Shown here piece by piece: positions 12,184 to 54,365 of a stretch of 64,000 nt of DNA. Each line of letters opens with the position of its first letter. Position 1 is the stretch's first letter. Position numbers and translations under genes: made by a program. Below the pieces are notes generated by a model that saw nothing but the letters and a program-made list of their open reading frames with translations, ran no database searches and was not told where the DNA came from. This DNA comes from a virus, in IMG/VR virus record IMGVR_UViG_3300047678_000169, positions 1-64,000 of that record. One strand, 5' to 3'.

Positions 12184-13191
12184 ATGGAAAAATACTACTC
12201 TTATCAAGAAGTCTTTCTTGAACCAAAGTTTTCAGAATATCGTTCACGCAGTGAAGTTGACACTTCAGTAAAAATAGGAGGGAAGGTATTTAAGCTGCCG
12301 ATTATTCCAGCCAACATGAAATGTGTCATGGACGTTGATAGGGCAAGATGGATGAGTGAAAATGATTATTTCTACATCATGCATCGATTTGGTAAGAAAA
12401 ATTCTTTGACCCACGAACAGGTAGATTTGGATAACAAAGAATTCGTTGCCATAGCTAATTTAGAAAAATGGAAAACTATTAGCATCAGTTTGGGAGTTAT
12501 TGAAAGAGACAGAGATTTTCTAAATTTCTGTGCAGCGAGGGAATTAAGAATTGATTTCATAACTCTGGACATCGCTCATGGTCATTCAGTTGCTATGAGA
12601 GATATGTTGAAATTCGTTCGTAGTCACAGATACTATAAGAATGTTGTGGTGATAGCCGGAAACATTGCTTCTGCTCAAGCGGCCAAGGATTTGGCTAGTT
12701 GGGGTGCTAGTATCATTAAGGTTGGTATTGCTCAAGGTGGAGCGTGCACGACATTTGGAAAAACTGGCTTCGGTTCGCCGATGTTTAGCATTGTAAAAAA
12801 ATGTGCCAGCGCTTCGTGGATTCCAATCATTGCAGATGGTGGAATCAGAACCAATGGAGATATAGCTAAAGCTTTGTCGGCGGGAGCTCAGTTAGTTATG
12901 GCTGGAGGATTGTTCGCCGCTACAAAGGATAGTCCGGCCGTCACCGTTTATAAACCATATGACGGTATTGGAAGACACGAATCCATTGCAACTCATAAAA
13001 TTTATTACGGTTCTGCGTCTGAGGATAACACTCACAGCACCCACCACATCGAAGGAACTAGAATCAATCTTCCTATTGATAGATGGACTTATGCTGAAAA
13101 ATTGATTGAAATCCAAGAAGACCTACAGAGTTCGATTTCGTATGCAGGCGGAGATTTAACCACGGCTGTTTGGGGAGTCAGAACAGCTTAA
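12184..13191 (+). CDS. GMP reductase / IMP dehydrogenase family enzyme
   Basis: 335 residues, TIM-barrel without the CBS domains found in most IMP dehydrogenases, so closer in size to GMP reductase (about 347). The catalytic loop reads KVGIAQGGACTTFGKTGFG with Cys at 188; DGGIRTNGDIAKALSAGA (about 220-237) is the phosphate-binding site, and YYGSASE near 279 matches the C-terminal GMP-binding segment. Reaction by family: NADPH-dependent GMP to IMP (GuaC) or the reverse-direction IMP oxidation. It would adjust purine pools during infection. The only isolated plus-strand gene in the first 43 kb; its 3' end overlaps the convergent FecR-like gene by 14 bases. Confidence 0.85.
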   Translation: MEKYYSYQEVFLEPKFSEYRSRSEVDTSVKIGGKVFKLPIIPANMKCVMDVDRARWMSENDYFYIMHRFGKKNSLTHEQVDLDNKEFVAIANLEKWKTISISLGVIERDRDFLNFCAARELRIDFITLDIAHGHSVAMRDMLKFVRSHRYYKNVVVIAGNIASAQAAKDLASWGASIIKVGIAQGGACTTFGKTGFGSPMFSIVKKCASASWIPIIADGGIRTNGDIAKALSAGAQLVMAGGLFAATKDSPAVTVYKPYDGIGRHESIATHKIYYGSASEDNTHSTHHIEGTRINLPIDRWTYAEKLIEIQEDLQSSISYAGGDLTTAVWGVRTA

Positions 13192-25165: not shown

Positions 25166-25944
25166 AAACCCAATTCCTCTTTAAAATTATCAAATAACCA
25201 AGCAGTAACATCATTTCTGAATTTTACATCGCCCGTGATATGAACCACGTTGGTTATGTCTTTGAAGGAAGTTTTGGGGTCTAATTTGCGACCCAATGCG
25301 TCAATCTGGCCGTCAAATAGAGTCCTTAACGTGTAATCCATGACATTGAACGAACGCGGTAGCAATGTGACAGGAAACTTGTTGTCTCTTACTGTAAAAT
25401 TGAGAATGGTTTGGTCATCGGTAAAATCAGGAGATTTATTAACTTCACACCACTTTTTATATTCTCTATGAAAAAATTCATATACCTCGTCCAAAGCCTT
25501 CTTATGTTTTTTACTGTATATGACCATACCACCATTGATGTAATTTTCCCAAGAAACATCGGTTACTGTTGGAAACCAGTTTTCTCTAACCATTCTTATT
25601 GAACGGTTGAGTGCCGGTGCATATCCTCCGTCTGGACAACCCCCGAAGTTGCCATCAACCATCTTGAAAAAATCTGGCGCCCAAGGCATAATGAATGTAT
25701 CCCAATCAACCGCACATACTTGTTCAAATTCAATCTTGTTTTTCTCAAGTGCGTCTATAATCTTCATTCGCTGAAAGATTCCTGGAACCTTAGCTTGGTC
25801 TTCAAATTCCGTTTCAAGAAATATGAATTGATAACCATGTTTTTCACACCACGCGTGCCACGAATAAGCGCATCTTTGAACAAATGGTTGATGTGGGGGC
25901 GTGGTTGGGCCACGCATTGCAGTCATACACACTACGTTTTTCAT
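25162..25944 (-). CDS. Glycosyltransferase-like protein (GT34/DUF273-like)
   Basis: 260 residues from ATG 25944, which follows AAGGAGAT and overlaps the upstream stop as ATGA. NVVCMTAMRGPTTPPHQPFV begins the protein; QVCAVDWDTFIMPWAP carries a DWD motif typical of galactosyl/mannosyltransferases of GT34-like folds, and NGGMVIYSKKHK near 155-170 is the usual acceptor-side NGG. Inferred nucleotide-sugar transferase acting in the glycan operon. A homing endonuclease lies directly upstream. Confidence 0.65.
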   Translation of the reverse strand: MKNVVCMTAMRGPTTPPHQPFVQRCAYSWHAWCEKHGYQFIFLETEFEDQAKVPGIFQRMKIIDALEKNKIEFEQVCAVDWDTFIMPWAPDFFKMVDGNFGGCPDGGYAPALNRSIRMVRENWFPTVTDVSWENYINGGMVIYSKKHKKALDEVYEFFHREYKKWCEVNKSPDFTDDQTILNFTVRDNKFPVTLLPRSFNVMDYTLRTLFDGQIDALGRKLDPKTSFKDITNVVHITGDVKFRNDVTAWLFDNFKEELGL

Positions 25945-26714
25945 ATTGGCATCTCCTTGAAAGTTCTTATCCAAGCCCATCTCCACAACTGTGCAATACT
26001 TTTATTATGTTTATCTTCTTCTGTCAAAGTTCTTCCCTTAGAGAATGTATTTCCATTCATCCTCTGTGATTGTAATTTTTTATGTTCTTCCGTCCAAGTT
26101 TTACCAAGAGAATATTTGTTACCTATAGCGCTTTTACTAAGCTTTTGTTTGTGTTCATCGGAAAGTTTTTTTCCAAGAGTAGCGGTGTTTCCCATTTTTG
26201 CTATTGATAATTTCTTCCTATATTCATCAGATTTCATCATTGTCTGGAATTTTTCACTGTTCTTCATTCCATTAGATATTTTCTTCAATGTCTCTTTACA
26301 GACATTTGATGGGCTGTCCCCAGCTCCATAACAATTATATCCATTATGAACCGAATCTTTTTTATTTATCCAAAAATTTTCTCTACCTTTCAACCCAATT
26401 AAATTTGGTCGCTGTTCAAGTATATGAAAAACAAAATTTTCTATTCCATGCTTCATAATGGCTCTATAAAGTTTCCACTGTTTTGAAAATTTCAATTTCT
26501 TATAGTCTCCCCACCGTTTATGTATGTTCTTGCTCCTTCCAACATACCATTTATCAGGCTTGATTTTATTTTGTATTCCATACACACCAATGATTTCAGT
26601 CTTTAGATGCCCAATATCGTTGCATTTGAATTTTTTTATATCGTTCTTTATTTCGAGCGTAGTGTTCTCTTTTCCACCGTTTTTCAGCCTCTTGTTTTTC
26701 TTTAGTAGATTCAT
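25941..26714 (-). CDS. GIY-YIG homing endonuclease with NUMOD3 repeats
   Basis: 257-codon frame. GVYGIQN (43-49) and WYVGRSKN (56-63) form the GIY-YIG core with Arg 67 (KRW) as the catalytic-type residue. The C-terminal half has three NUMOD3 units (KKLSIAKMGNTATLGKKLS, SKSAIGNKYSLGKTW, NGNTFSKGRTLT), a DNA-binding motif of homing nucleases. The first 35 codons overlap the MGRK ORF at 26596-26733 in another frame, so translation may start elsewhere. A/T-rich and set between two glycosyltransferase genes, it looks inserted. Target site not evident. Confidence 0.8.
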   Translation of the reverse strand: MNLLKKNKRLKNGGKENTTLEIKNDIKKFKCNDIGHLKTEIIGVYGIQNKIKPDKWYVGRSKNIHKRWGDYKKLKFSKQWKLYRAIMKHGIENFVFHILEQRPNLIGLKGRENFWINKKDSVHNGYNCYGAGDSPSNVCKETLKKISNGMKNSEKFQTMMKSDEYRKKLSIAKMGNTATLGKKLSDEHKQKLSKSAIGNKYSLGKTWTEEHKKLQSQRMNGNTFSKGRTLTEEDKHNKSIAQLWRWAWIRTFKEMPI

Positions 26715-26779: not shown

Positions 26780-27667
26780 TTATTGAACTATTTCTAACAT
26801 TTCTTTTACAACGGATTTGGTTGTAAGATTCTTTCTCGTGTGGTCTAACAATTGATTGACGGTATCTTTATACCAATTCATATCTATTTTTGCGCTAGCA
26901 ACTACCTCGTTGGATTTCAATATCAATTCCTTTGGAAATTTCATCATTGTTTCTGGAGGACATTTTTCCAAGTCCGGAAAATATGGTATGCAGCCGTTCA
27001 TAAGGATTTCTAGGTGTCTAAGCGTGTCCCACCCCCCCTTTTTGAAAGTCAAGCCAAAATATGATTTCTGATAGTCTTCGAAGTAAGGTTTCTCCTCATC
27101 GAAAATGTATGTTTCCAACTTTCCAGGTTGAACAGTTCCCCAATCTTGGGATTTCTCTGGAACAGAAGACAATACTTTTTCTTCTGGTATACAGAAATTA
27201 ATAGGATGTAATCTATCAGTTGGAGAAGTATTCAATTCACGTTTGAAAAGGTGACCGCCAACATCAATAAGACTATAATCAATTCCCTGATGGTCTTCTC
27301 CGTCGATGAAAATAATCTTACCCTTGTTGTAGACTTTCAATACTTCTTGTATGTAATCTTGACAACGAGTGATTGAGCCATAAACAACGTAATCAAAATA
27401 CTTGGAACGAATTTTATCGACCAAATCTATTCTTAGAGAGTCGTCTATGTCTTCAAACGTTCCATACAACGTAAATCCTCTTCCATAGCTTCTACCTTGG
27501 TCTGGAACTCTCTCAGTCCAATACTGCTCCTTGTCTTTTTTATACATATGCCAAATTTTATTAGCATCAATTACATCAGCTCCAAAAAGAGAGCGCAGAC
27601 CGTGAAACACCATGTCCGATTGAAAATCTGGTAAATCTCCCTTAGCTATGAATAGAATTTTCATCAT
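26780..27667 (-). CDS. GT-B-like glycosyltransferase
   Basis: 295 residues, MMKILFIAKGDLPDFQSDMV at the start. A Rossmann-like first half (YVVYGSITRCQDYI, KIIFIDGEDHQG) and a C-terminal region with SYFGLTFKKGGWDTLRHLEI then NGCIPYFPD, which resembles the CgeB/GT1 C-terminal donor site (KGGWDxxRxxE ... G). By that pattern a retaining or inverting GT-B transferase; the donor is not readable. ATG codons overlap the upstream TAA as TAATG. Confidence 0.65.
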   Translation of the reverse strand: MMKILFIAKGDLPDFQSDMVFHGLRSLFGADVIDANKIWHMYKKDKEQYWTERVPDQGRSYGRGFTLYGTFEDIDDSLRIDLVDKIRSKYFDYVVYGSITRCQDYIQEVLKVYNKGKIIFIDGEDHQGIDYSLIDVGGHLFKRELNTSPTDRLHPINFCIPEEKVLSSVPEKSQDWGTVQPGKLETYIFDEEKPYFEDYQKSYFGLTFKKGGWDTLRHLEILMNGCIPYFPDLEKCPPETMMKFPKELILKSNEVVASAKIDMNWYKDTVNQLLDHTRKNLTTKSVVKEMLEIVQ

Positions 27668-28392
27668 TATATTATGGCTCTACCATGTGGTTTTGTCAAT
27701 GAGAATTTAATATCATCTCTCACGGCCAAAGAAATTTGTCTAGCTGAAAAATAAGTGGCCAAGATATTCTCAGCGTTTTCAAAGTGGTGTGAATTTAGGT
27801 TGGTCACAAACCTTGGAACATATAGAAAACATTCACAAGCAGCAGTCATAACGTCCGGCCTTCCCCAAAATATTTGGTCAATGATTCCCATGTGGCCGGT
27901 TCTTACGATTAGATTTCCAATTTCAATGTCTTTGATACTTGGTTCGACAATATCTTGAACAAGTTCCGTGTCGAATCGGAGCCTAACTACAGCATCATAG
28001 GTTGTTCCAGTTTCTGCTGAATAAACAATTCTCAGATGGTCAGCATCATATATCTTTCGAAACATCGAATTGTTTTGAGACAGTTGAGAACCATTTCTGG
28101 TTACTATACCCTTCCATTTGGTTTCTAATCTATTTACAGAACCATCGGTAGCTCTCTCGATGTGGAAATTTCCATGAACTGGCTTGTAGGTGGATAAAAG
28201 CCTATCGGTTACGTCGCTAAATTCAAGAGGCGTTGTTGCATGATGAACGAATTGGACGCCCACGCCACTCTCCACCCAACTGGATAAGAATACATCGCAA
28301 TCATACTTATCCAACAAAAATTGTTTCAATGCTGGATAGGTTAATTTGTCCCCATCACGTAAATGACCAGATATACAGACAGCTATTTTCAT
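27667..28392 (-). CDS. Glycosyltransferase-like/surface-glycan protein
   Basis: 241 residues. KIAVCISGHLRDGDKLTYPAL opening, and DVFLSSWVESG near 33-43 are seen in capsule-locus proteins related to exostosin/GT-type folds. VVRLRFDTELV near 133-143 contains an RFD motif that could be a metal site. Precise family uncertain. Coupled on both sides, within the run that contains the RuBisCO-like gene. Confidence 0.6.
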   Translation of the reverse strand: MKIAVCISGHLRDGDKLTYPALKQFLLDKYDCDVFLSSWVESGVGVQFVHHATTPLEFSDVTDRLLSTYKPVHGNFHIERATDGSVNRLETKWKGIVTRNGSQLSQNNSMFRKIYDADHLRIVYSAETGTTYDAVVRLRFDTELVQDIVEPSIKDIEIGNLIVRTGHMGIIDQIFWGRPDVMTAACECFLYVPRFVTNLNSHHFENAENILATYFSARQISLAVRDDIKFSLTKPHGRAII

Positions 28393-28886
28393 TGTAAATC
28401 TTTCTTGAGTTGTTCAACGTTTTTAGAGCATATTCCATATGCTTTCTTCATTTCTTCTCTAGACCACCCATTCTCCTCAGGCATTACTAATACACTTCTT
28501 GGTAAAGCAAATTTATAAGGATTGTTAACATGTGTCCAAACATAAGCTCGGCTGGTGATGGTATAGTCATCCTCTTGATGCCAAAAATAATGCATAGGAT
28601 TGAATGTAGCCGTCAACCATCTTGGACACGATGAAAGGACGCTCAAAGCATCAATGTTCTTACAATGGAGCCACAACCCATCCTTGAATATGAAATCACT
28701 TGGAACTTCATATTCAGGTTTGTCATGTCCTAAGAACCACTTACCATCGATATATCGAATATCAACCTCGACATCATATCCGAGCATCAAAGCAAAGTTG
28801 ACCCTTTCTGGATGATTTTCTAATCCAGAATTTGGCCCGGCTATCAATGCTCTGTGTGCGATTAATTTCAAGACTTGATTCCCCAT
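28389..28886 (-). CDS. Short glycerophosphodiester phosphodiesterase-like protein
   Basis: 165 residues, clearly shorter than the usual ~250. LIAHRA with His 11 and Arg 12, LEN at 22-24 (E23), VEVDIR with E40 and D42, and LGHD with H54 are the conserved acid-base and metal residues of the GDPD TIM barrel in order. The rest is a truncated barrel. The family hydrolyses glycerophosphodiesters to glycerol-3-phosphate; here a phosphodiester in a glycan or its precursor is a reasonable guess. Coupled by overlap to the RuBisCO-like gene (18 bases) and to the next gene (ATGA). Confidence 0.7.
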   Translation of the reverse strand: MGNQVLKLIAHRALIAGPNSGLENHPERVNFALMLGYDVEVDIRYIDGKWFLGHDKPEYEVPSDFIFKDGLWLHCKNIDALSVLSSCPRWLTATFNPMHYFWHQEDDYTITSRAYVWTHVNNPYKFALPRSVLVMPEENGWSREEMKKAYGICSKNVEQLKKDLQ

Positions 28887-30073
28887 TTGTTCACAGCAAT
28901 ACCATATTCCATTCCATATGCCTTATCGATAGATTGTCTGATGGCTCTTGCTCCGGCAACCGTTCCCATTGGGTGTCCGTGAATGGCTCCCCCAACGTTT
29001 GCCATATAATCTACTCCAAATCGTTTGTTGATACCTTCAATCAATCCGGCGTGCATACCACAGCTCAAAGCTGGGACTACGTTTCCATCACGAAGAACCT
29101 TTAAGGTCTTTTGCAAATCTTCTTCTGATTCGCTCATATATCCACCCCACATTCCTGAATGGATTGTGTCAGCTCCCATCAAGGCAGCTAGCTGACAGAT
29201 AATATCCCAAGCGATGCTGAAGCGGTGTGATTTGTCGGTGAATACTTTGTCGCCACTCTTTTGAAAGTGAAGATACAACGGGAGGTCCAATCTTCTAACT
29301 GAATTATATGCTCCAAGACCACACCAAACATTCAAGTGAATACCATTGCCACCAGCATCAGCAACAAATTTGGCTCTGTCCAAGATAGCGTGTGGGTCAG
29401 CATTGATGGCGGTGCAATAGACCACCTTGCGGCTTTGATTGTTGAGCCAATTTGAAATCAATGGAACTCTTTCCTTTAAAGAACACACCGATGGGTTGGA
29501 TAGAATTTCGTCTTCTTTGATAAAATCTACTCCACCATCAACCAACTCCTTTACCATTTCCAATAGAATCTTTGGAGAAATTCCAGTTTTTGGTTTGATG
29601 ATAGCTCCAAACAGAGGCTTGTCATATTGGCCTGTGTAGTTTCTCATTCCGGAGAAACCGTATTTTGGTCCTTTAAAATGCTTCTTGACGTTATCAGGAA
29701 TATCTAAACCAATCAAACGACAGCCTTGAATTATGTCAATATCCATTTGTCCTCCCATTAGTTGACACAATAGGTGAGAAATACCATCATCTTCCCAATC
29801 GGTGTTTGCTACTGGAAATCCAATTCTAATGTCTCCATGTGTCTTCTTTCGTAGGTCATCTTCAGTAAATTCGGTTATAACAATACACGAATGATTTTCA
29901 AATAATTCATCTGTTTCGTGAATGCTACGCACGTTTGGATTACCAACACTCTGACCAATGGCTAGGTTCCATGCTGCGTCTCTAAGATTTGAGTCGAGCG
30001 TAGAACGCAATTGATACGTGGCAATTACATAATCGTTCTGATTAACATCTGTCAGTGGTTTAAATAACTTCAT
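28868..30073 (-). CDS. RuBisCO-like protein (form IV type) within a glycan operon
   Basis: 401 residues. Aligned by eye to plant RuBisCO, FGAIIKPKTG holds the K175/K177 pair (K160, K162); DFIKEDE holds the carbamylated Lys 201 and metal ligands Asp 203 and Glu 204 (K186, D188, E189). IHSG holds H327 (H305), ALSCGM holds S379 (S337), and VGGAIHGHP holds the phosphate-binding GG. Differences: N123 position is G108, H294/R295 become Q271/K272, K334 becomes Y312, G380 becomes C338. These losses exclude normal CO2 fixation; RuBisCO-like proteins of form IV act as enolases, isomerases or decarboxylases on sugar-like phosphates (family knowledge). Coupled with a cupin, a sugar nucleotidyltransferase and a GDPD-like gene, so a role in precursor synthesis is inferred. 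Confidence 0.88.
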   Translation of the reverse strand: MKLFKPLTDVNQNDYVIATYQLRSTLDSNLRDAAWNLAIGQSVGNPNVRSIHETDELFENHSCIVITEFTEDDLRKKTHGDIRIGFPVANTDWEDDGISHLLCQLMGGQMDIDIIQGCRLIGLDIPDNVKKHFKGPKYGFSGMRNYTGQYDKPLFGAIIKPKTGISPKILLEMVKELVDGGVDFIKEDEILSNPSVCSLKERVPLISNWLNNQSRKVVYCTAINADPHAILDRAKFVADAGGNGIHLNVWCGLGAYNSVRRLDLPLYLHFQKSGDKVFTDKSHRFSIAWDIICQLAALMGADTIHSGMWGGYMSESEEDLQKTLKVLRDGNVVPALSCGMHAGLIEGINKRFGVDYMANVGGAIHGHPMGTVAGARAIRQSIDKAYGMEYGIAVNKWGIKS

Positions 30074-30383
30074 ATTTGTCGTTTGGTAGTGAGGGTGATT
30101 TGATGCACAAAACTTTACAGTCTTCGTGAAAAATTGGGTCGGCTACTTCACCAGCATCAATGGTGAATATGTCGCCTTTGGATAATAGCGTTCCACATAT
30201 CGTCATACTTCCTTCTAAGAGGACGTTATGTTCAATAGCTACTTTGTGATAATGCTTGGGCCATTTTTCGTCCTTCTTATGGGTAAGAACACCAATTTCA
30301 ACGTAGTCAGTCTTCCATATCGAAGGATTGAAATTTCCAACGAACCAACCACGATGCATATCACTTAATTTAAGAACTTTCAT
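30060..30383 (-). CDS. Small cupin-like protein
   Basis: 107 residues. WPKHYHKVAIEHNVLLEGSM (about 42-61) gives the cupin His-x-His ... Glu metal motif and the following G, and LSKGDIFTIDAGEVADPIFH gives the second cupin motif. Single-domain cupins next to sugar genes are often isomerases, epimerases or sensors. It overlaps the RuBisCO-like gene by 14 bases and the nucleotidyltransferase by 4, so the three are translated together and likely act on one metabolite. Confidence 0.7.
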   Translation of the reverse strand: MKVLKLSDMHRGWFVGNFNPSIWKTDYVEIGVLTHKKDEKWPKHYHKVAIEHNVLLEGSMTICGTLLSKGDIFTIDAGEVADPIFHEDCKVLCIKSPSLPNDKYEVI

Positions 30384-31096
30384 TTTGAATTCTCAAGTTC
30401 TACAAACTTAGCTAAATCTTCGGGAGTTCCGACAGCGTGATGTTGTTCATTTGGGATGTGATATACACCAACGGAAACTCCTCTATTTATAAGATAGTTG
30501 TATGTTGGGCCAACGTAATACTCTCCATTTGGTGCGGTATCTTTCAAACGAATCATTTCTTCGGCTGAAGACACAAAATCCCTTCCTTGTTTCCAATAAT
30601 GAATTCCGTTGAGGGAGATGTTGCTAATAACCTTTTTCTCCTTTACCTCCACAACATATCCCGACCTATCCAACTTAGCATAACTGTTCTTTGGAGTTTC
30701 TGAAAAGTATGTGACGATTGTTCCTGAATTGTATCTAGCATTGTGTAGAAATAAATCAGAATTCCACCACATTACTTGGTCACAATTTGCCACTACTAAC
30801 TCTTCATTGTTGTCGATTTTGTCCTTAAATAACAAAACAGAAGACGCCGGGCCAGCGGTTACATAATCGATTTCAACAAACTCAGCATTTGGAAGTATTG
30901 AATGAACCACACTCTTGAGCTTGGAAGTGTATGCGTCCTTTCTGACAACGAAATGATACTTGCCAGGCAGATTCAATGACTTGATTGCCTTAACAATCAT
31001 TGGTTCTCCATTAATGTCAATTAGTGGCTTTGGGATAGAATATCCTGCGTCAGCGAAACGTGAGCCGATTCCGGCCATTGGTATTACGATGTTCAT
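30380..31096 (-). CDS. Sugar-phosphate nucleotidyltransferase
   Basis: 238 residues from ATG 31096 (ATGA overlap with the upstream stop); a TTG at 31135 is open but less likely. Motif MNIVIPMAGIGSRFADAGY at the start and IPKPLIDINGEPM (about 21-33) are the NTP-binding GxGxRF and PKP signatures of the NTP_transferase family; ELVVANCDQVMWW (about 92-104) has the metal Asp. It would activate a sugar- or polyol-phosphate as an NDP derivative, the donor for nearby transferases. Substrate could be the product of the RuBisCO-like/cupin pair (inference). Confidence 0.82.
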   Translation of the reverse strand: MNIVIPMAGIGSRFADAGYSIPKPLIDINGEPMIVKAIKSLNLPGKYHFVVRKDAYTSKLKSVVHSILPNAEFVEIDYVTAGPASSVLLFKDKIDNNEELVVANCDQVMWWNSDLFLHNARYNSGTIVTYFSETPKNSYAKLDRSGYVVEVKEKKVISNISLNGIHYWKQGRDFVSSAEEMIRLKDTAPNGEYYVGPTYNYLINRGVSVGVYHIPNEQHHAVGTPEDLAKFVELENSK

Positions 31097-31794: not shown

Positions 31795-32600
31795 GTAAGA
31801 ATATCGAAGTGTAATCCATTTTCTTTCTCCCATTCCTTTGTGGTGATATTCAAATCAACAGGAGAAAAATGGCTTACACCATGTTTGACATAAGGATATA
31901 AACCAAAACGGGAAGAAAGCCAAGGAAAAACTACTTCTCCATACCATCTATTTTTGATGCGTGTCTTAAAATAAGAATCTGGAGCTTTTTTTAGAAACCA
32001 AGACACAACGCTACCTTTGATAACATAAAAAGTCTCAACGTAAGACCAATTAACATGAGTATATTTTAGTTCGTCAAAAGGTATGTTCTGAACGATTGGC
32101 ATTTCTCCGTGGTCGAACTCTAAATGGTCAAGAGTCTTCCATTGAGTATGTCCGTCAGCCGATTGGCCAACCCCATAATGTCCATAGACACCGATGGAAG
32201 GATTTCTATCCAACAGTGCTTCAATTTCTGTTCTTTTGGATAGAAATTCATTGAGATAGTATTCGAATCTATCCTGACGGTCATTTACTCCACCTTTGGT
32301 ATGGGCGAACCACACGTTCTTATATGGTTCCTTTGTCCTCATTCTCATTGCTTTTAAGGCAGCTTGAGTTCCAGATGCGTCTGACTCACAATATAATTCC
32401 CTCGGCACCACTGATACCACAAGATTTTGGTGTTTGGAGCTCAATATTTTGTTATAGACTTCATTGCAAGTGTCTGGATTGATTCCTACGAATACATCAG
32501 CATCGGCGAAAGTGGTTTCCAATACCTCTAACCACCTATCAATCATCCAAGCTTTGGAAGAGTTGAAAATAGAAACGGAAAATACGACAGCAGATTTCAT
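31791..32600 (-). CDS. Hypothetical glycan-locus protein, possibly glycosyltransferase
   Basis: 269 residues. First strand KSAVVFSVSIFN, a later NVWFAHTKGGVNDRQDRFEY (about 95-114) and YVKHGVSHFSPVDLN near 235. HTKG followed by a long loop occurs in some rhamnan-synthesis-like (DUF616/RgpF-like) proteins. I would not go beyond probable glycan transfer or modification. Coupled by 4-base overlaps on both sides. Confidence 0.55.
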   Translation of the reverse strand: MKSAVVFSVSIFNSSKAWMIDRWLEVLETTFADADVFVGINPDTCNEVYNKILSSKHQNLVVSVVPRELYCESDASGTQAALKAMRMRTKEPYKNVWFAHTKGGVNDRQDRFEYYLNEFLSKRTEIEALLDRNPSIGVYGHYGVGQSADGHTQWKTLDHLEFDHGEMPIVQNIPFDELKYTHVNWSYVETFYVIKGSVVSWFLKKAPDSYFKTRIKNRWYGEVVFPWLSSRFGLYPYVKHGVSHFSPVDLNITTKEWEKENGLHFDILT

Positions 32601-33520
32601 TGAATGTGGTGTTTTAAGTCTTCAACCGAAGCAGCTATTCCAGCATCCATTTCAAATATTGGGCTCCATCCGGTATCTATCCACAATTTGTAATTGCTGA
32701 TGTGGGTGCTTTTAACGTCCCAATCTGGAGGTTTACAATATTCGATTGTAATTTCCGTATTTGTTTCTTTGGATACTTGCCTAATAATATCGTTTATAGA
32801 GTAAGACCTTCCGCTACATACATTGTAGGTTCCGACCAAATCATCTTCAAGAATAGCCTCAATGGCTCGAATAAAATCTAAGTAATAGATAAAATCTTTG
32901 GTCGCCCTGCCATCTCCCCAGATTCTTAAAGTTTCATGTTTAATGGCTGCTTGTATAACCATTGGTATGATGCCCTGTATTTGATTTCTACCATTTGGAA
33001 TGTATTTTCCATATGGATTGGTAATTCTCAAATTCAAATGGTCCGGAGCTTGAGACACTATTCTTTCAGCAAATAGTTTTGCTTGAGCATACCAACCAAT
33101 CGGATTCATATATGTCAGAGATTCATCTTTCTGGACATATAGTTCAGACCCATCGGGAAAAATTGTTCTAGCAATTGCTTCGCCATAAACGGCACCGGTG
33201 GAAAAGAATACAAGTTTGGTTCCACTTTCGGTGGCGTGTTGAGTTAACAATCTGACATTGTGATAATCCTCTGAGGTGTTCCAAGGACTTCTTTTCATTT
33301 CGGCTATCGATGGAACGGTGGTCCATGATAAATGAAACACATAATCAGATTTTTTTAGATAATCGGAGTTGAACAATAGTTTAACATCTTCATAACCTTT
33401 GCCGGGCGTCCTTGAAAAAAGAGTGACTTCATATTTCTGTGGGTCGAGATATGATTTGATTAGTGTTGCTAGGCGGCCACGGCCACCTGTAACAAATACT
33501 CTCTTCTTTCTTTCAGCCAT
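32597..33520 (-). CDS. NAD-dependent epimerase/dehydratase (extended SDR)
   Basis: 307 residues from ATG 33520. RVFVTGGRGRLATLI (about 6-20) is the NAD-binding GxxGxxG-type loop with GGRGRLA, and the extended-SDR active site YxxxK is seen as GWYAQAKLFAERI near 150-162; FFSTGAVYGEA near 102-112 provides the Ser/Thr. These enzymes epimerise, dehydrate or reduce NDP-sugars (UDP-glucose 4-epimerase, dTDP-rhamnose enzymes). It precedes the transferases of this run and probably makes one of their donors. A TTG at 33535 is an unlikely alternative start. Confidence 0.82.
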   Translation of the reverse strand: MAERKKRVFVTGGRGRLATLIKSYLDPQKYEVTLFSRTPGKGYEDVKLLFNSDYLKKSDYVFHLSWTTVPSIAEMKRSPWNTSEDYHNVRLLTQHATESGTKLVFFSTGAVYGEAIARTIFPDGSELYVQKDESLTYMNPIGWYAQAKLFAERIVSQAPDHLNLRITNPYGKYIPNGRNQIQGIIPMVIQAAIKHETLRIWGDGRATKDFIYYLDFIRAIEAILEDDLVGTYNVCSGRSYSINDIIRQVSKETNTEITIEYCKPPDWDVKSTHISNYKLWIDTGWSPIFEMDAGIAASVEDLKHHIQ

Positions 33521-33521
33521 G

Positions 33522-34124
33522 TTAGTATTTAACAATCTTTACCAATTTGTCGTTGTTGAAGAATTCTACGCTCTTTATGTTTTCAGATACAAATTTATTC
33601 TCTTCGTAAGATAGATGTGGGCTAGCAAATGAATTGGTTGTTTCCCAATTTCTCAACAAGAAGTCGGTTCTCTCAGCAGCTGGATACAAGGGACAGGTGT
33701 GAAGGTCTTCGATGAAATAAATTCCTCCAGACTTCAAGGCCTTCAATAGAACAAAGAGGCTGACCTGTTGGTGTGGCATTTGGTGTGCTCCATCATCAAC
33801 GATGAAATCAAGAGGTTCCATATCAGGAATCATACTATTCAAGTGCTCTCTATTGGTTTGGTCTAGAATATAGACCTTTTCACAAATACTCTTGTCAAAG
33901 AATGAAGAACAATCATTAATATCCATTCCCCAGAGCTTCATTTCTGGATTATATTCTTTCCACATTCTCAAAGAATCTCCATGCCAAATCCCAATTTCAA
34001 GAAGTTTGACTGGGCCTTCACTTGGGACATATTTCTCATACGTCAATGTATAGGAATGTTTTTCAAACCATTCCGTTCCTTTGTCTGCGTGGTGCTTGTT
34101 AGCAATTTCTGTTAAATTTCTCAT
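33522..34124 (-). CDS. SAM-dependent methyltransferase (CmcI/MycE-like)
   Basis: 200 residues. LLEIGIWHGDSLRMWKEYN (about 41-59) is the SAM site; PLDFIVDDGAHQMPHQQ (about 104-120) has the DDG-H metal-binding pattern and GGIYFIEDLHT near 134-144 the second acidic site, together typical of cephalosporin hydroxylase/macrocin O-methyltransferase relatives that use a metal to methylate sugar hydroxyls. ATG overlaps the FkbM gene stop as ATGA. Likely a sugar O-methyltransferase (inference). Confidence 0.75.
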   Translation of the reverse strand: MRNLTEIANKHHADKGTEWFEKHSYTLTYEKYVPSEGPVKLLEIGIWHGDSLRMWKEYNPEMKLWGMDINDCSSFFDKSICEKVYILDQTNREHLNSMIPDMEPLDFIVDDGAHQMPHQQVSLFVLLKALKSGGIYFIEDLHTCPLYPAAERTDFLLRNWETTNSFASPHLSYEENKFVSENIKSVEFFNNDKLVKIVKY

Positions 34125-34828
34125 GTTAGTAGTATTGTGTAGTAGTCTTGAGTTTTTCTCATATAGTCGTCAGTCACTTCTGAGCCTGTGGATGGACCAG
34201 AAACAATGAGTCCTCTTAAATAATGTGACCTTAATTCAATCAAGTGTTCGATGTTTTCTTGAAAGTTTGGCATCATTGGTGGATGGATGGATAATAGAGT
34301 TGGAGGAATCTCATTCCTCAAGAATATAGATTTAGCTACAGCATATTCCCCACCCTCAATATCAATCTTTACAAAGTTAATATTACCAGCTTCTTCAATT
34401 ATAGAACTGACATAATCATCTAAGGTCATACACTCCGTTTCAAATGATAGCTCAGGCCTGAAATTTCCAACTCTTGTTACACTTTCTCCAAGTCTATTGT
34501 CGGAGCCCAACGTCATCTTTCCTTTGTAATCAGATAGAGCAAATTGATTCACTATGATGTTGGTGAATCCATTTAATGCTATGTTCTTGAACAGTTCTTC
34601 TTGAGCAACTGGGTCTGGTTCAAAGCAGTGAACTTTCTTGGCTAGTTGGGAGCCGTATAAGACGGTTGGACCTATCCACGCCCCAATGTCCAGATAACTT
34701 CTGTCTTTTACCAAGTGTTCATCAAAAATCTTATAAATTTCCGATTCCCATCCGGAGTTTCCCCAAAATGGTCCGTTCGGAGTTCCTTCTGTAACATTAA
34801 ATGTGAGATTGTTTCTTTTTACGTTCAT
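34121..34828 (-). CDS. FkbM-family methyltransferase
   Basis: 235 residues from ATG 34828 (ATGA overlap); an in-frame start at 34855 lies inside the upstream gene. LDIGAWIGPTVLYGSQL (about 46-62) is the SAM loop, CFEPDPVAQE the strand-2 acid, and INFVKIDIEGGEYAVAKS near 148-165 the FkbM KIDIEG signature. Paralogue of the 24461-25165 protein. Expected to O-methylate a sugar in the same glycan. Confidence 0.82.
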   Translation of the reverse strand: MNVKRNNLTFNVTEGTPNGPFWGNSGWESEIYKIFDEHLVKDRSYLDIGAWIGPTVLYGSQLAKKVHCFEPDPVAQEELFKNIALNGFTNIIVNQFALSDYKGKMTLGSDNRLGESVTRVGNFRPELSFETECMTLDDYVSSIIEEAGNINFVKIDIEGGEYAVAKSIFLRNEIPPTLLSIHPPMMPNFQENIEHLIELRSHYLRGLIVSGPSTGSEVTDDYMRKTQDYYTILLT

Positions 34829-35520
34829 AGGCCCATATTTTCTTTTTGTGACCAATTCTTCAAATAGAATTCGTTTTGTTTTGTTTGTCTTTCGATGGTC
34901 TTATCGTGTATCAGAGAGAAATTAACATCAATTGGCAATTCCGCAACAACCTTGGCTCCGGAGATTCTTTCATGTAGCTTTCTCTCCCACTTAATATCAG
35001 ATGTATTTCTATAGATTCTGCCCTGTTTGTCTCCTGAGTTCCAGTTGATAATTGGTAGACCAGGAAACTCTTCCAAGAACGATACATGCCACCCCCATCT
35101 TTTAGCATCGGCCTCGGTCAAACCTCTGACAATATTAACTCTTGGAACCCTATACAACTCTACAGATGGATTCGATTCCAATATCTCATGTATGTTCTCA
35201 ATCAAAAAATCAGAAGGATATTCGTCAGCGTCTATTTGAAATACCCAACGATTTTTACAGTTGAGGGTTCCGAAGTTTTTATGTGCTCCAAAATCCCCAT
35301 CTAAGTTGTGCTTGATTACTCTTCCCAATTTGGAAGATGTGCTGAACAATGGGTGGAAAGCCAGTATCTTCTTAGTCTCTTCATTTGTTGAATTATCATC
35401 AACAATGATGATTTCATCGTCGGTGTTAGCAACGGTGTGATATAGTTTTTCAAGAAGCCGACTCAATTCGTCGGCTTCGTTGTGAACCGTTATCAAGTAA
35501 GAGATACTTGACTTAGCCAT
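34825..35520 (-). CDS. Family 2 glycosyltransferase (WaaE/KdtX-like)
   Basis: 231 residues. ISYLITVHNEADELSRLL, then EIIIVDDNSTNEET (DDxS nucleotide site, about 36-49) and WVFQIDADEYPSDFL (about 91-105, DAD-E metal site), are those of WaaE-type GT2 enzymes, with a tryptophan-rich region (KRWGWHV) after. By family it adds a sugar to LPS core-like acceptors. ATG 35520, three bases after the groEL stop, so it may share its transcript with groES-groEL. Confidence 0.82.
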   Translation of the reverse strand: MAKSSISYLITVHNEADELSRLLEKLYHTVANTDDEIIIVDDNSTNEETKKILAFHPLFSTSSKLGRVIKHNLDGDFGAHKNFGTLNCKNRWVFQIDADEYPSDFLIENIHEILESNPSVELYRVPRVNIVRGLTEADAKRWGWHVSFLEEFPGLPIINWNSGDKQGRIYRNTSDIKWERKLHERISGAKVVAELPIDVNFSLIHDKTIERQTKQNEFYLKNWSQKENMGL

Positions 35521-35523
35521 GAA

Positions 35524-37140
35524 TTACATTCCTTCTTGTGGAATCTGCTGTTGAATTTGCTCGGCCTCATCTTCAATGTCAGCAATCATACATTCGGTGG
35601 TCAATAATAGACCAGCGATGGATGCAGCGTTTTGAAGAGCGGTGCGCGTGACCTTTGTTGGGTCAACAACTCCGGAAACAACCAAGTCTTGATAAACATC
35701 GGTTGCGACATTGTAACCGTAATTTCCCGTGTTCTTCAACACTTCACTTACTACAACGTCTCCACTCTTTCCTGCATTTGAACACAGCATCTTGATTGGG
35801 TGTTCGATGGCTCTACGAACAATTTGAGCTCCAATTTGTTCATCGCCTTCTAACTTGAGAGCGTCAATAACCGAAGCACATCTCAATAGAGCAACTCCTC
35901 CACCCGGAACAATTCCCTCTTCAACTGCGGCACGTGTTGCGTGCAAGGCATCTTCAACACGGTCTTTCTTTTCTTTCATTTCGGATTCGGTGGCTGCGCC
36001 CGTGTGGACAACTGCAACTCCGCCAGTTAGTTTGGCAAGGCGTTCTTGAAGCTTCTCACGCTCGAAGTCAGAAGTCGATTTCTCAATTTCATTCTTAATG
36101 AGCTTAATACGAACTTCAATGGCAGCTGGTTTGCCCGTTCCGCCGATGATGGTGGTGCTATCCTTTGTTACAATAATCTTCTTAGCCTGACCCAAATCAG
36201 CAAAGGTTAATTTGTCAAGATTGAGCCCAAGCTCAGAGGTAATCAATTTTGCTCCAGTGATGGTCGCAATGTCCTCGAGGGTAGCACGGCGTCTATCACC
36301 AAATCCAGGTGCCTTAACAGCACATGAAACGAAAGCTCCACGAACTCTGTTTACAACCATAAAGGCGAGAGCATCACCCTCAACATCTTCAGCTATAACA
36401 AGGAGCTTCTTTCCCATCTTAGCAATTTCTGTAAAGAATTTGGCCAATGGGGCTATGGTGGTGAGCTTCTTTTCGATAACCAGAACCAAAGCGTCATCAA
36501 GAACAGCTTGTTGGGTTTCTTGGTCTGCAAAATAAGCGGAAATGAATCCCTTATCGAACTGCATACCCTCAACGACCTCAAGAGTCGTATCCATTGAGCT
36601 AGCTTCTTCAACGGTGATTGTTCCATCCTTACCAACCTTATCCATGGCGTCGGCAATAATGTTACCAATTGAGGTATCCCAGTTGGCGGAGACGGTGGCG
36701 ACCTGGCGAATCTCTTCGCTGCTGCTTACCTTTTTAGAGATTTTGGCTAATTCTGCTACAGCAGCTACTACAGCCTTGTCGATACCACGCTTCAAATACA
36801 CCGGATTTGCGCCAGCGGCTACGGTCTTTAGACCTTCACGATAGATTGCGGATGCAAGAACCGTTGCGGTGGTTGTTCCGTCTCCGGCCAAATCGTTGGT
36901 CTTGGAAGCAACTTCTTTTACCATTTGAGCACCCATGTTCTCAAACTTATCTTTGAGTTGAATAGACTTAGCAACCGTAACTCCGTCTTTGGTAATCAAT
37001 GGAGAACCAAATCCACGTTCGATGGCGACATTGCGACCCTTGGGCCCCAATGTTACACTGACCGCATTTGATAGGGTTGTTACTCCAGCCAAGATTTTAT
37101 TTCTGGCCTCTGCACTAAATAGGATTTCTTTTGATTTCAT
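35524..37140 (-). CDS. groEL: Chaperonin GroEL (60 kDa)
   Basis: 538 residues, near the bacterial ~548. Catalytic and ATP-site residues fall at E. coli numbers: KDGVTVAK with D52, GDGTT with D87 at 86-90, and [16 protein letters not shown] with the D398 equivalent. [20 protein letters not shown] and TTECMIAD are the conserved C-terminal equatorial segment. The C-terminus ends IPQEGM and lacks the GGM tail repeats. It should form the ATP-driven folding chamber with GroES, probably for virion proteins. Immediately follows groES (2 bases). Its similarity to bacterial GroEL suggests acquisition from a host. Confidence 0.95.
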
Positions 37141-37142
37141 AA

Positions 37143-37436
37143 TTATTTCTCGACTCCGAGGATTTCTTCGATGTGTAGAAGATAGTGTTTGGCACCATCA
37201 ACCTTAAATTCATTTCTTAGGTTCTTAGGAACAATAGCGGTAGCCTCAGGAACAAGCTCTTCTGGAACTTGAACGTCCTTGGTTCCCTTACCGACAGCTA
37301 TTACAACGGCTCTATTGAGTCCATCAACTGCTGTAGGTGGTATGTAAAGTTCAAAATCACCTGATTTTGTGGTTTCTTCGGCCTCAACAAGTCTTACTAA
37401 GACCATGTTGCCAAGTGGAATTATTGTTTTGCTCAT
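37143..37436 (-). CDS. groES: Co-chaperonin GroES
   Basis: 97 residues. [20 protein letters not shown] is the canonical first strand; [20 protein letters not shown] and [11 protein letters not shown] follow, with the C-terminal [12 protein letters not shown]. The mobile loop region ([14 protein letters not shown]) is at 24-37, where GroES contacts GroEL apical domains through a hydrophobic tripeptide (YIP here). Ordered groES-groEL as in bacteria. ATG 37436 overlaps the upstream glycosyltransferase stop. Confidence 0.93.
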
Positions 37437-53960: not shown

Positions 53961-54365
53961 TGGTGGACCTGCGGGGAGTTGAACCCCGGTGTTTCATAAA
54001 TTGCTCATCAGACATATACAAGCGTTAACACGGTGGATATGATTGTGGTTAGTAGTGTGCTCCACAAAAATTAGAGTCAGTAGTTTCTTCGTTGTTACAG
54101 TCTCACTTTCTCACAACGAACATATCAGCAGAGGTTGACGTATTGACCCACTTATCTGCGTGGTGGAATACGGACTGCTCAGTTTATTAAGCAGCGACAG
54201 CCATAGCGGCTCCAACGTTCTTCGCCTTGCGGAGAAGTGTTAGAACATTTAGCTTAGCAAGATTTCTCTTAGCATTTAGTTTTTGTAATCAGGATTATGC
54301 AGGATGTTTACCACCTGCGCTTGCGTTCCGAGCTCAACCCATAAAGTCGAATCCTGGACAGGCCC
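53961..54365 (-). ncRNA. ssrA: tmRNA (transfer-messenger RNA)
   Basis: 405 bases. The 5' end GGGCCTG pairs with 3' CAGGTCC in a 7-bp acceptor stem, with G3-U70, the alanine identity pair, then A and CCA. The T-arm is CGGGG/CCCCG around the loop TTCAACT. Near the 5' end, TCCAGGATTCGAC is the conserved tmRNA D-region. The tag frame reads from GCT at 54273, preceded by AAACTAAAT, through to GCT GCT TAA TAA at 54184-54195: AKRNLAKLNV... to ...GAAMAVAA, up to 28 residues, longer than usual (8-15). A resume codon at the GCT five codons in would give 23. It rescues stalled ribosomes by trans-translation with SmpB, which is not seen here. Confidence 0.93.

Follow-up and report, generated by a model that had tools for sequence, protein, structure and literature searches.

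To our knowledge, the RuBisCO-like proteins (RLPs) characterized so far serve only in catabolism or salvage, namely in methionine salvage, in the apionate pathway, and in a link to isoprenoids. MtnW (2,3-diketo-5-methylthiopentyl-1-phosphate enolase; structures 2oej and 4nas) shares the RuBisCO fold and the carbamate/metal triad and does not fix CO2. OiaX (NCBIfam model NF042437) and the 3nwr-type RLPs also belong to form IV. In Rhodospirillum rubrum, the RLP is a 5-methylthio-D-ribulose-1-phosphate 1,3-isomerase, whose step is followed by that of a cupin, MTXu-5P methylsulfurylase (PMC6302742). Ocean samples have given their name to a further RLP clade, IV-GOS (PMC10173188), and 65 RuBisCO homologs outside the known forms were reported in the GOS paper (PMC1821046). 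In viruses, an "RbcL-like" gene is listed among the auxiliary metabolic genes of landfill phages (PMC12607003), and carbon fixation has been claimed for rbcL genes of soil and Great Salt Lake viruses (PMC12615777, PMC8506154). The RLP described here was first noticed in a sequence-only reading of a phage contig, which proposed a RuBisCO-like step in glycan precursor synthesis and held it to be new in a phage. As a described function it is new, and no description of an RLP in a nucleotide-sugar cassette was found in the open-licence literature; as a gene it is not, since viral "rbcL" genes are already on record as auxiliary metabolic genes (PMC12607003, PMC12615777, PMC8506154). The novelty appears to lie in the clade and its genomic context, while the RuBisCO superfamily itself is well known.

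The window analyzed here comprises 64,000 nucleotides and is part of an 80,238-bp IMG/VR virus record (IMGVR_UViG_3300047678_000169), a linear fragment. The record encodes a T4-type clamp-loader subunit, a helicase, an exonuclease, a dNMP kinase, and homing endonucleases. Neither a terminase nor a capsid gene was recognized on it, where the sole weak match to a terminase profile crosses stop codons. Its entry as a virus record and its T4-type replication genes uphold the assumption that the contig derives from a phage and not from a bacterial chromosome. Several other genes of the window are of interest in their own right. A GroEL gene (538 aa) and a GroES-like gene (35524-37436) lie inside the glycan island among glycosyltransferase genes, and an open reading frame at 25941-26714, which by eye resembles a GIY-YIG homing endonuclease, lies amid glycan genes and may have inserted there. 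An IMP dehydrogenase/GMP reductase gene (12184-13188) is among the few large genes on the plus strand, and a tmRNA gene (53961-54365; Rfam, 70 bits) encodes a predicted tag peptide that, at 28 residues, is unusually long.

The RLP gene occupies positions 28868..30073 of the minus strand and encodes 401 aa from an ATG start with a RuBisCO_large match; the plus-strand reading of the same interval contains stops. As the sequence-only reading had stated, it lies between a cupin gene and a GDPD-like gene and beside a nucleotidyltransferase gene, all of them on the minus strand. The NDP-sugar-type nucleotidyltransferase (NT; 30380..31096, with MNIVIPMAG as its likely start) has a transferase domain above the cut-off (PF12804) together with the G-x-G-x-R and K-P motifs of a sugar-phosphate nucleotidyltransferase, and its nearest PDB entry is 4evw (E 3.5e-32), which bears only a generic sugar-pyrophosphorylase name. 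The small single-domain cupin (30060..30383, 107 aa) contains the HXH(X)4E(X)6G core of the cupin motif 1, G(X)5HXH(X)3-4E(X)6G, as H44-x-H46-x4-E51-x6-G58, and its profile matches are weak (E 1.5e-4). The short GDPD-like protein (28389..28886, 165 aa; phrog_34507) keeps the HR, EN, E-x-D, GHD, and W-x-H-x-K motifs, and the catalytic HR, E-N, E-x-D, and H-D motifs of a GDPD are invariant in 22 sequences of the family. It has no Pfam match, and its best Foldseek match is a GDPD, though a weak one (E 0.017, TM 0.47). PDB profile searches with the cupin and the GDPD-like protein return remote matches only. Downstream on the same strand lies a further glycan-island gene (27667..28392), which has no Pfam match and whose family, cluster 4, is present in 39 of 81 RLP neighborhoods. 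The NT and cupin genes overlap by 4 bp, the cupin and RLP genes by 14 bp, the RLP and GDPD-like genes by 19 bp, and the GDPD-like gene and the one after it by 4 bp, a range of 4-19 bp that slightly extends the 4-18 bases first given. With overlaps of this size, translational coupling of the NT, cupin, RLP, and GDPD-like genes is plausible. The same island holds minus-strand genes for an NAD-dependent nucleotide-sugar epimerase/dehydratase (32597..33535; PF01370, 83 bits) and a family 2 glycosyltransferase (34825..35520; PF00535), and RLP loci are surrounded by glycosyltransferases, nucleotide-sugar epimerases, and methyltransferases.

The RLP scores 136 bits against Pfam RuBisCO_large (PF00016; cut-off 30.1), which makes it a member of the RuBisCO superfamily. 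Its best PDB sequence match is 4nas (E 2e-38), and a Foldseek search with its AlphaFold model (pLDDT 90, pTM 0.89) returns the form III RuBisCO 2d69 (E 1.2e-31), so that a RuBisCO fold is predicted. Comparison with a 94% identical relative (L002) gives a dN of 0.031 and a dS of 1.68, and dN is well under dS in the four further RLP pairs tested, indicating a real gene under purifying selection and not noise. NCBIfam and PHROGs gave the protein no name; its scores against the NCBIfam RuBisCO models are 179, 177, and 109 bits, all below the respective cut-offs of 497, 438, and 489.

In RuBisCO, K201, D203, and E204 hold the metal and serve enolization, and N123 and K334 serve the addition of CO2. 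The C1 phosphate is bound by T65, W66, K334, and G404, and the C5 phosphate by R295, H327, and S379. In an alignment of 39 sequences from phages, bacteria, and archaea (one row being a fragment), window residues K160/K162, K186, D188, E189, H305, and S337 align with RuBisCO K175/K177, K201, D203, E204, H327, and S379, in agreement with the earlier account of the residues kept, among them the carbamylation lysine K186 and the metal ligands D188 and E189. Positions K175, K177, K201, D203, and E204 are invariant in 39/39 rows. The losses first seen at N123, H294, R295, and K334 (now G, Q, K, and Y in the window) also recur in the alignment, which adds further ones at E60, T65, W66, and G380. E60 is replaced by G, T65 by N, W66 by P, N123 by G, and H294 by Q in all 39 sequences, and K334 by Y and G380 by C in 38/38 rows covering them. 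R295 has become K in 32 sequences and S in 6; at H327, 27 sequences retain H and 11 have Q; S379 is retained, and G404 is replaced by A or S. The positions by which a CO2-fixing RuBisCO is recognized (N123, H294, R295, K334, and T65/W66) therefore read G, Q, K/S, Y, N, and P, and the protein, a RuBisCO homolog with essential carboxylase residues replaced, is classed as a form IV RLP. Judged by these residues, the clade seems to keep the enolization machinery and part of the C5-phosphate site, with the C1/CO2 side remade, so that CO2 fixation is not to be expected. The assignment of residues to phosphates is that of RuBisCO and may not carry over to the RLP.

The intact carbamylation/metal triad and the predicted fold would also suit a CO2-fixing RuBisCO that serves the phage as an auxiliary metabolic gene in carbon fixation, and a viral "rbcL" elsewhere has been reported to be active in this way (PMC12615777). 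However, N123, H294, K334, T65, and W66 are replaced in all rows covering them, the protein falls below every NCBIfam RuBisCO cut-off and into a separate clade, and the windows examined show glycan neighbors and neither a small subunit nor phosphoribulokinase. This interpretation was rejected by NCBIfam scores, residues, and tree, and we give it next to no credence; the form IV-type assignment, which had excluded a CO2 fixer from the start, is borne out by residues and phylogeny alike.

For the phylogeny, form I, form III, MtnW (2oej, 4nas), OiaX-like proteins (3nwr, Rhizobium OiaX), and other RLPs served as references. RLPs of phages and cells come together in a single clade (support 100/100) separate from forms I-III, and so lie outside CO2-fixing RuBisCO. 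Relative to the reference RLPs in this tree, the clade would be a distinct one. Phage and cellular members interleave within it, and thus transfer has occurred. A different RLP, 26% identical to that of the window, is found in Desulfosporosinus fructosivorans (L105:8216-13740), where it is flanked by genes that by eye resemble glpA and glpB/glpC of anaerobic glycerol-3-phosphate dehydrogenase.

The pairing of an RLP with a cupin recalls the 5-methylthio-D-ribulose-1-phosphate isomerase and MTXu-5P methylsulfurylase of R. rubrum (PMC6302742), and a pentulose phosphate, as proposed here, would be a further likeness to that published description. An MtnW-type methionine-salvage enolase or an R. 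rubrum-type sulfur-salvage isomerase in phages is nevertheless very improbable. The two NCBIfam MtnW models give only 126 and 163 bits against cut-offs of 513.6 and 409, and a grouping of the clade with MtnW is rejected (AU p 0.0017); on these two results the methionine-salvage reading was discarded. MtnW has different neighbors from the clade, and the R. rubrum route, which runs from sulfur salvage to isoprenoids, has no NT or GDPD-like partner, unlike the phage cassette. No salvage genes occur among the neighbors examined, where the partners are an NT and a GDPD-like protein in a glycosyltransferase island.

A tblastn search of 50,697 phage records returned no RLP, and thus no isolate phage is known to carry one. 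Such genes are nevertheless present in many aquatic phages, with relatives encoded by at least 240 IMG/VR stretches, of which the best 80, 58-94% identical, were kept. The RLP is rare in the cell genomes sampled, being found in 2/247 Pelagibacterales, 1/369 Gammaproteobacteria (a second match, L348, groups with MtnW in the tree and was not counted), 1/385 Alphaproteobacteria, and 4/22 genomes of the genus group holding Legionella maceachernii, in which a fifth match was too weak to be included. On the cellular side, the clade has members in Pelagibacter, Legionella, Azospirillum, Elusimicrobia, Verrucomicrobia, Patescibacteria, and DPANN archaea, and some of them are MAG contigs that may themselves be phage. 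The cassette proteins of a Crocinitomicaceae MAG contig (L083) are 100% identical to those of a phage contig (its RLP equals L022), and a Sphingobacteriales contig (L103) resembles phage DNA; each of the two may be of phage origin and have ended up in a MAG through binning.

Because greedy calling of reading frames overlooks short cupins and GDPDs, co-occurrence was counted with NT, cupin, and GDPD-like profiles on six-frame open reading frames, for loci flanked by at least 4 kb on each side and partners within 5 kb. Among 56 phage RLP loci, an NT is present in 55, a GDPD-like gene in 48, a cupin in 43, and all three in 36. The 11 cellular loci hold an NT in every case (11/11), a GDPD-like gene in 7, and a cupin in 4. 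The cupin is absent from about one quarter of the phage cassettes and is thus not essential to all of them. Besides NT-cupin-RLP-GDPD, the orders GDPD-NT-RLP and RLP-x-x-NT-cupin occur, the genes are shuffled in L046, L064, L079, and L087, and Azospirillum oleiclasticum (L099) and Elusimicrobia (L098) have GDPD-RLP-cupin-NT, unlike the phage order. Since the order changes while the membership persists, a shared function is indicated rather than inherited synteny. The gene set that the sequence-only reading had picked out from one contig therefore recurs, in several orders, in cells as well as in dozens of unrelated contigs of phages. In 4/4 Legionella species (L100:8919-11924, L101, L102, L351), a LicD-family gene adjoins the RLP-NT pair and is oriented divergently from it; the call (PF04991, 147 bits) was made on one species, to which the other three are 78-92% identical. 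Neither the phage loci nor the remaining cellular loci yielded a LicD homolog. The Legionella neighbor suggests a phosphodiester-linked decoration.

Isolate cyanophages, recovered in a search seeded on the partners of the RLP, carry NT, cupin, and GDPD-like genes without an RLP. Gp206 of Bellamy, annotated as a "phosphatase", is an NT fused to RpiB (PF02502, 111 bits). In S-SKS1, the NT is fused to DHBP synthase (DHBPS; PF00926, 219 bits), and in S-CAM9 and B23 to a HAD phosphatase. These fusion genes, with RpiB, DHBP synthase, or HAD domains, lie at L204:5835-6992, L206:6004-7431, L203:3299-4684, and L207:4631-6004. The RpiB-type cassette of the Synechococcus phages Bellamy and SynMITS9220M01 shares its NT, cupin, and GDPD-like families, and its kind of island, with the RLP cassette, but has RpiB fused to the NT, and a PfkB-type kinase, in place of the RLP. 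In IMG/VR, about 50 loci have the NT-RpiB fusion, preceded by a PfkB-type kinase and mostly followed by a cupin and a GDPD-like gene; the NT-DHBPS fusion occurs in 9. Of the loci returned by a scan seeded on the cupin, 47 contain an RLP and 32 do not; those 32 are mostly of the NT-cupin-GDPD kind, often with a HAD-fused NT. Across 127 RLP loci, which are overlapping samples, the NT stands alone in 122 and is fused to RpiB or DHBPS in none; the counts of RLP-less loci reflect sampling and not frequencies. In five loci of the cupin scan, an RLP gene and a DHBPS gene occur together. Besides its RLP cassette, L064 (12526-15287) carries three consecutive genes, for a stand-alone DHBP synthase, a 320-aa protein of no known kind, and a transaldolase; S-SKS1 has this trio too, linked there to the NT. 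The cyanophage labels "phosphatase", "3,4-dihydroxy-2-butanone 4-phosphate synthase", and "nucleoside-diphosphate-sugar pyrophosphorylase" hide fusions of one NT family.

D-ribulose 5-phosphate is the substrate of both RpiB and DHBP synthase in their reference members, and the product of DHBP synthase is a C4 phosphate. Since RLP cassettes are swapped for RpiB or DHBPS cassettes, the simplest reading is that the RLP, like these enzymes, draws on the pool of pentulose phosphates to provide the NT with a sugar phosphate. The RpiB and DHBPS assignments are by homology, and the substrate of the fused copies may have shifted.

The C4 product of DHBP synthase, as an alternative NT partner, also lends itself to a second possibility, in which the RLP is an OiaX-type decarboxylase (a 3-oxo-isoapionate-4-phosphate decarboxylase or a relative) that makes a tetrulose phosphate for the NT. 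OiaX-like proteins are among the nearest named relatives of the RLP, and the tree does not reject them as sister to the clade (AU p 0.44). We consider this unlikely: the RLP scores 150 bits where the OiaX model demands 700, and the OiaX-like reference (L123) retains N123, H294, R295, and K334, all of which are replaced in the clade. The loci differ as well, those of OiaX being catabolic plasmid-borne loci with acid-sugar kinases, and their four-carbon-acid kinase and dehydrogenase neighbors are missing here. Moreover, RpiB, the commoner alternative partner, is no decarboxylase.

Thus, the reading we prefer, with a probability of roughly 0.5, is that the RLP isomerizes or epimerizes a pentulose-type monophosphate by way of an enediolate and feeds the synthesis of a nucleotide-activated glycan precursor. 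A role in such a pathway is strongly indicated. The retention of enolization and of S379, with H or Q at H327, together with the replacement of the C1-phosphate and CO2 residues, suits a monophosphate, and sugar monophosphates would probably be the natural substrate class. We infer that the four enzymes act in one pathway, which would start from D-ribulose 5-phosphate or a near relative and use isomerase chemistry. First, the RLP would form an enediolate at the K186-carbamate/D188/E189-Mg2+ center and reprotonate it to an isomer, without adding CO2. Where present, the cupin may carry out further isomer or epimer chemistry, as its small HXH-x4-E type and the RLP-cupin sequence of R. rubrum suggest. 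The NT, by its family, very probably activates the resulting sugar phosphate as an NDP-sugar or CDP-alditol-like donor, and the GDPD-like protein might act on the same residue in a phosphodiester form, by hydrolysis or by transfer. A glycosyl- or phospho-transfer to the glycan would come last, consistent with the island and with the LicD-family neighbor in Legionella. The RuBisCO-like step in making an NDP-activated glycan precursor, as first proposed, is the best-supported reading; the reaction itself we infer. RLP cassettes contain no obvious kinase or phosphatase, which counts against the proposed supply of an anomeric phosphate. A similar logic of isomerase, kinase, HAD phosphatase, and NT is found in the GDP-/ADP-heptose pathway (GmhA, HddA/HldE, GmhB, HddC), and some cyanophage loci carry heptose-pathway annotations; however, the kinase and phosphatase of that pathway are absent from RLP cassettes, and the RLP is unrelated to GmhA.

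It is also conceivable, if unlikely, that the RLP belongs to the cassette but works on a larger donor, such as a nucleotide-joined sugar or a bisphosphate, and that the cupin and the GDPD-like protein do the isomer chemistry. The uniform remodeling of the C1-phosphate side (T65N, W66P, K334Y, G380C, G404A/S) would be expected for a new group bound there, and GDPD-like and NT genes co-occur without the RLP. Against this stands the use of simple sugar phosphates by the alternative partners RpiB and DHBPS.

We put at even odds that the clade is dedicated to a nucleotide-activated sugar that is pentulose-derived or otherwise unusual, that it is mobile among phages, bacteria, and archaea, and that it is interchangeable with NT-fused RpiB or DHBPS. 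The fusions of the NT to RpiB and DHBP synthase narrow the candidate chemistry to a short list of substrates that can be tested directly. Several viral "rbcL" matches have been read as carbon-fixation genes, and such matches need a check of N123, H294, and K334 before claims about the carbon cycle are made. An RLP clade in the glycan cassettes of phages and bacteria would add a biosynthetic role to the RLPs and predicts an activated sugar not yet known. If the proposed pathway is true, its product would be a novel nucleotide sugar, or a novel decoration linked through a phosphodiester, used by phages to alter the glycans of the host or of the virion.
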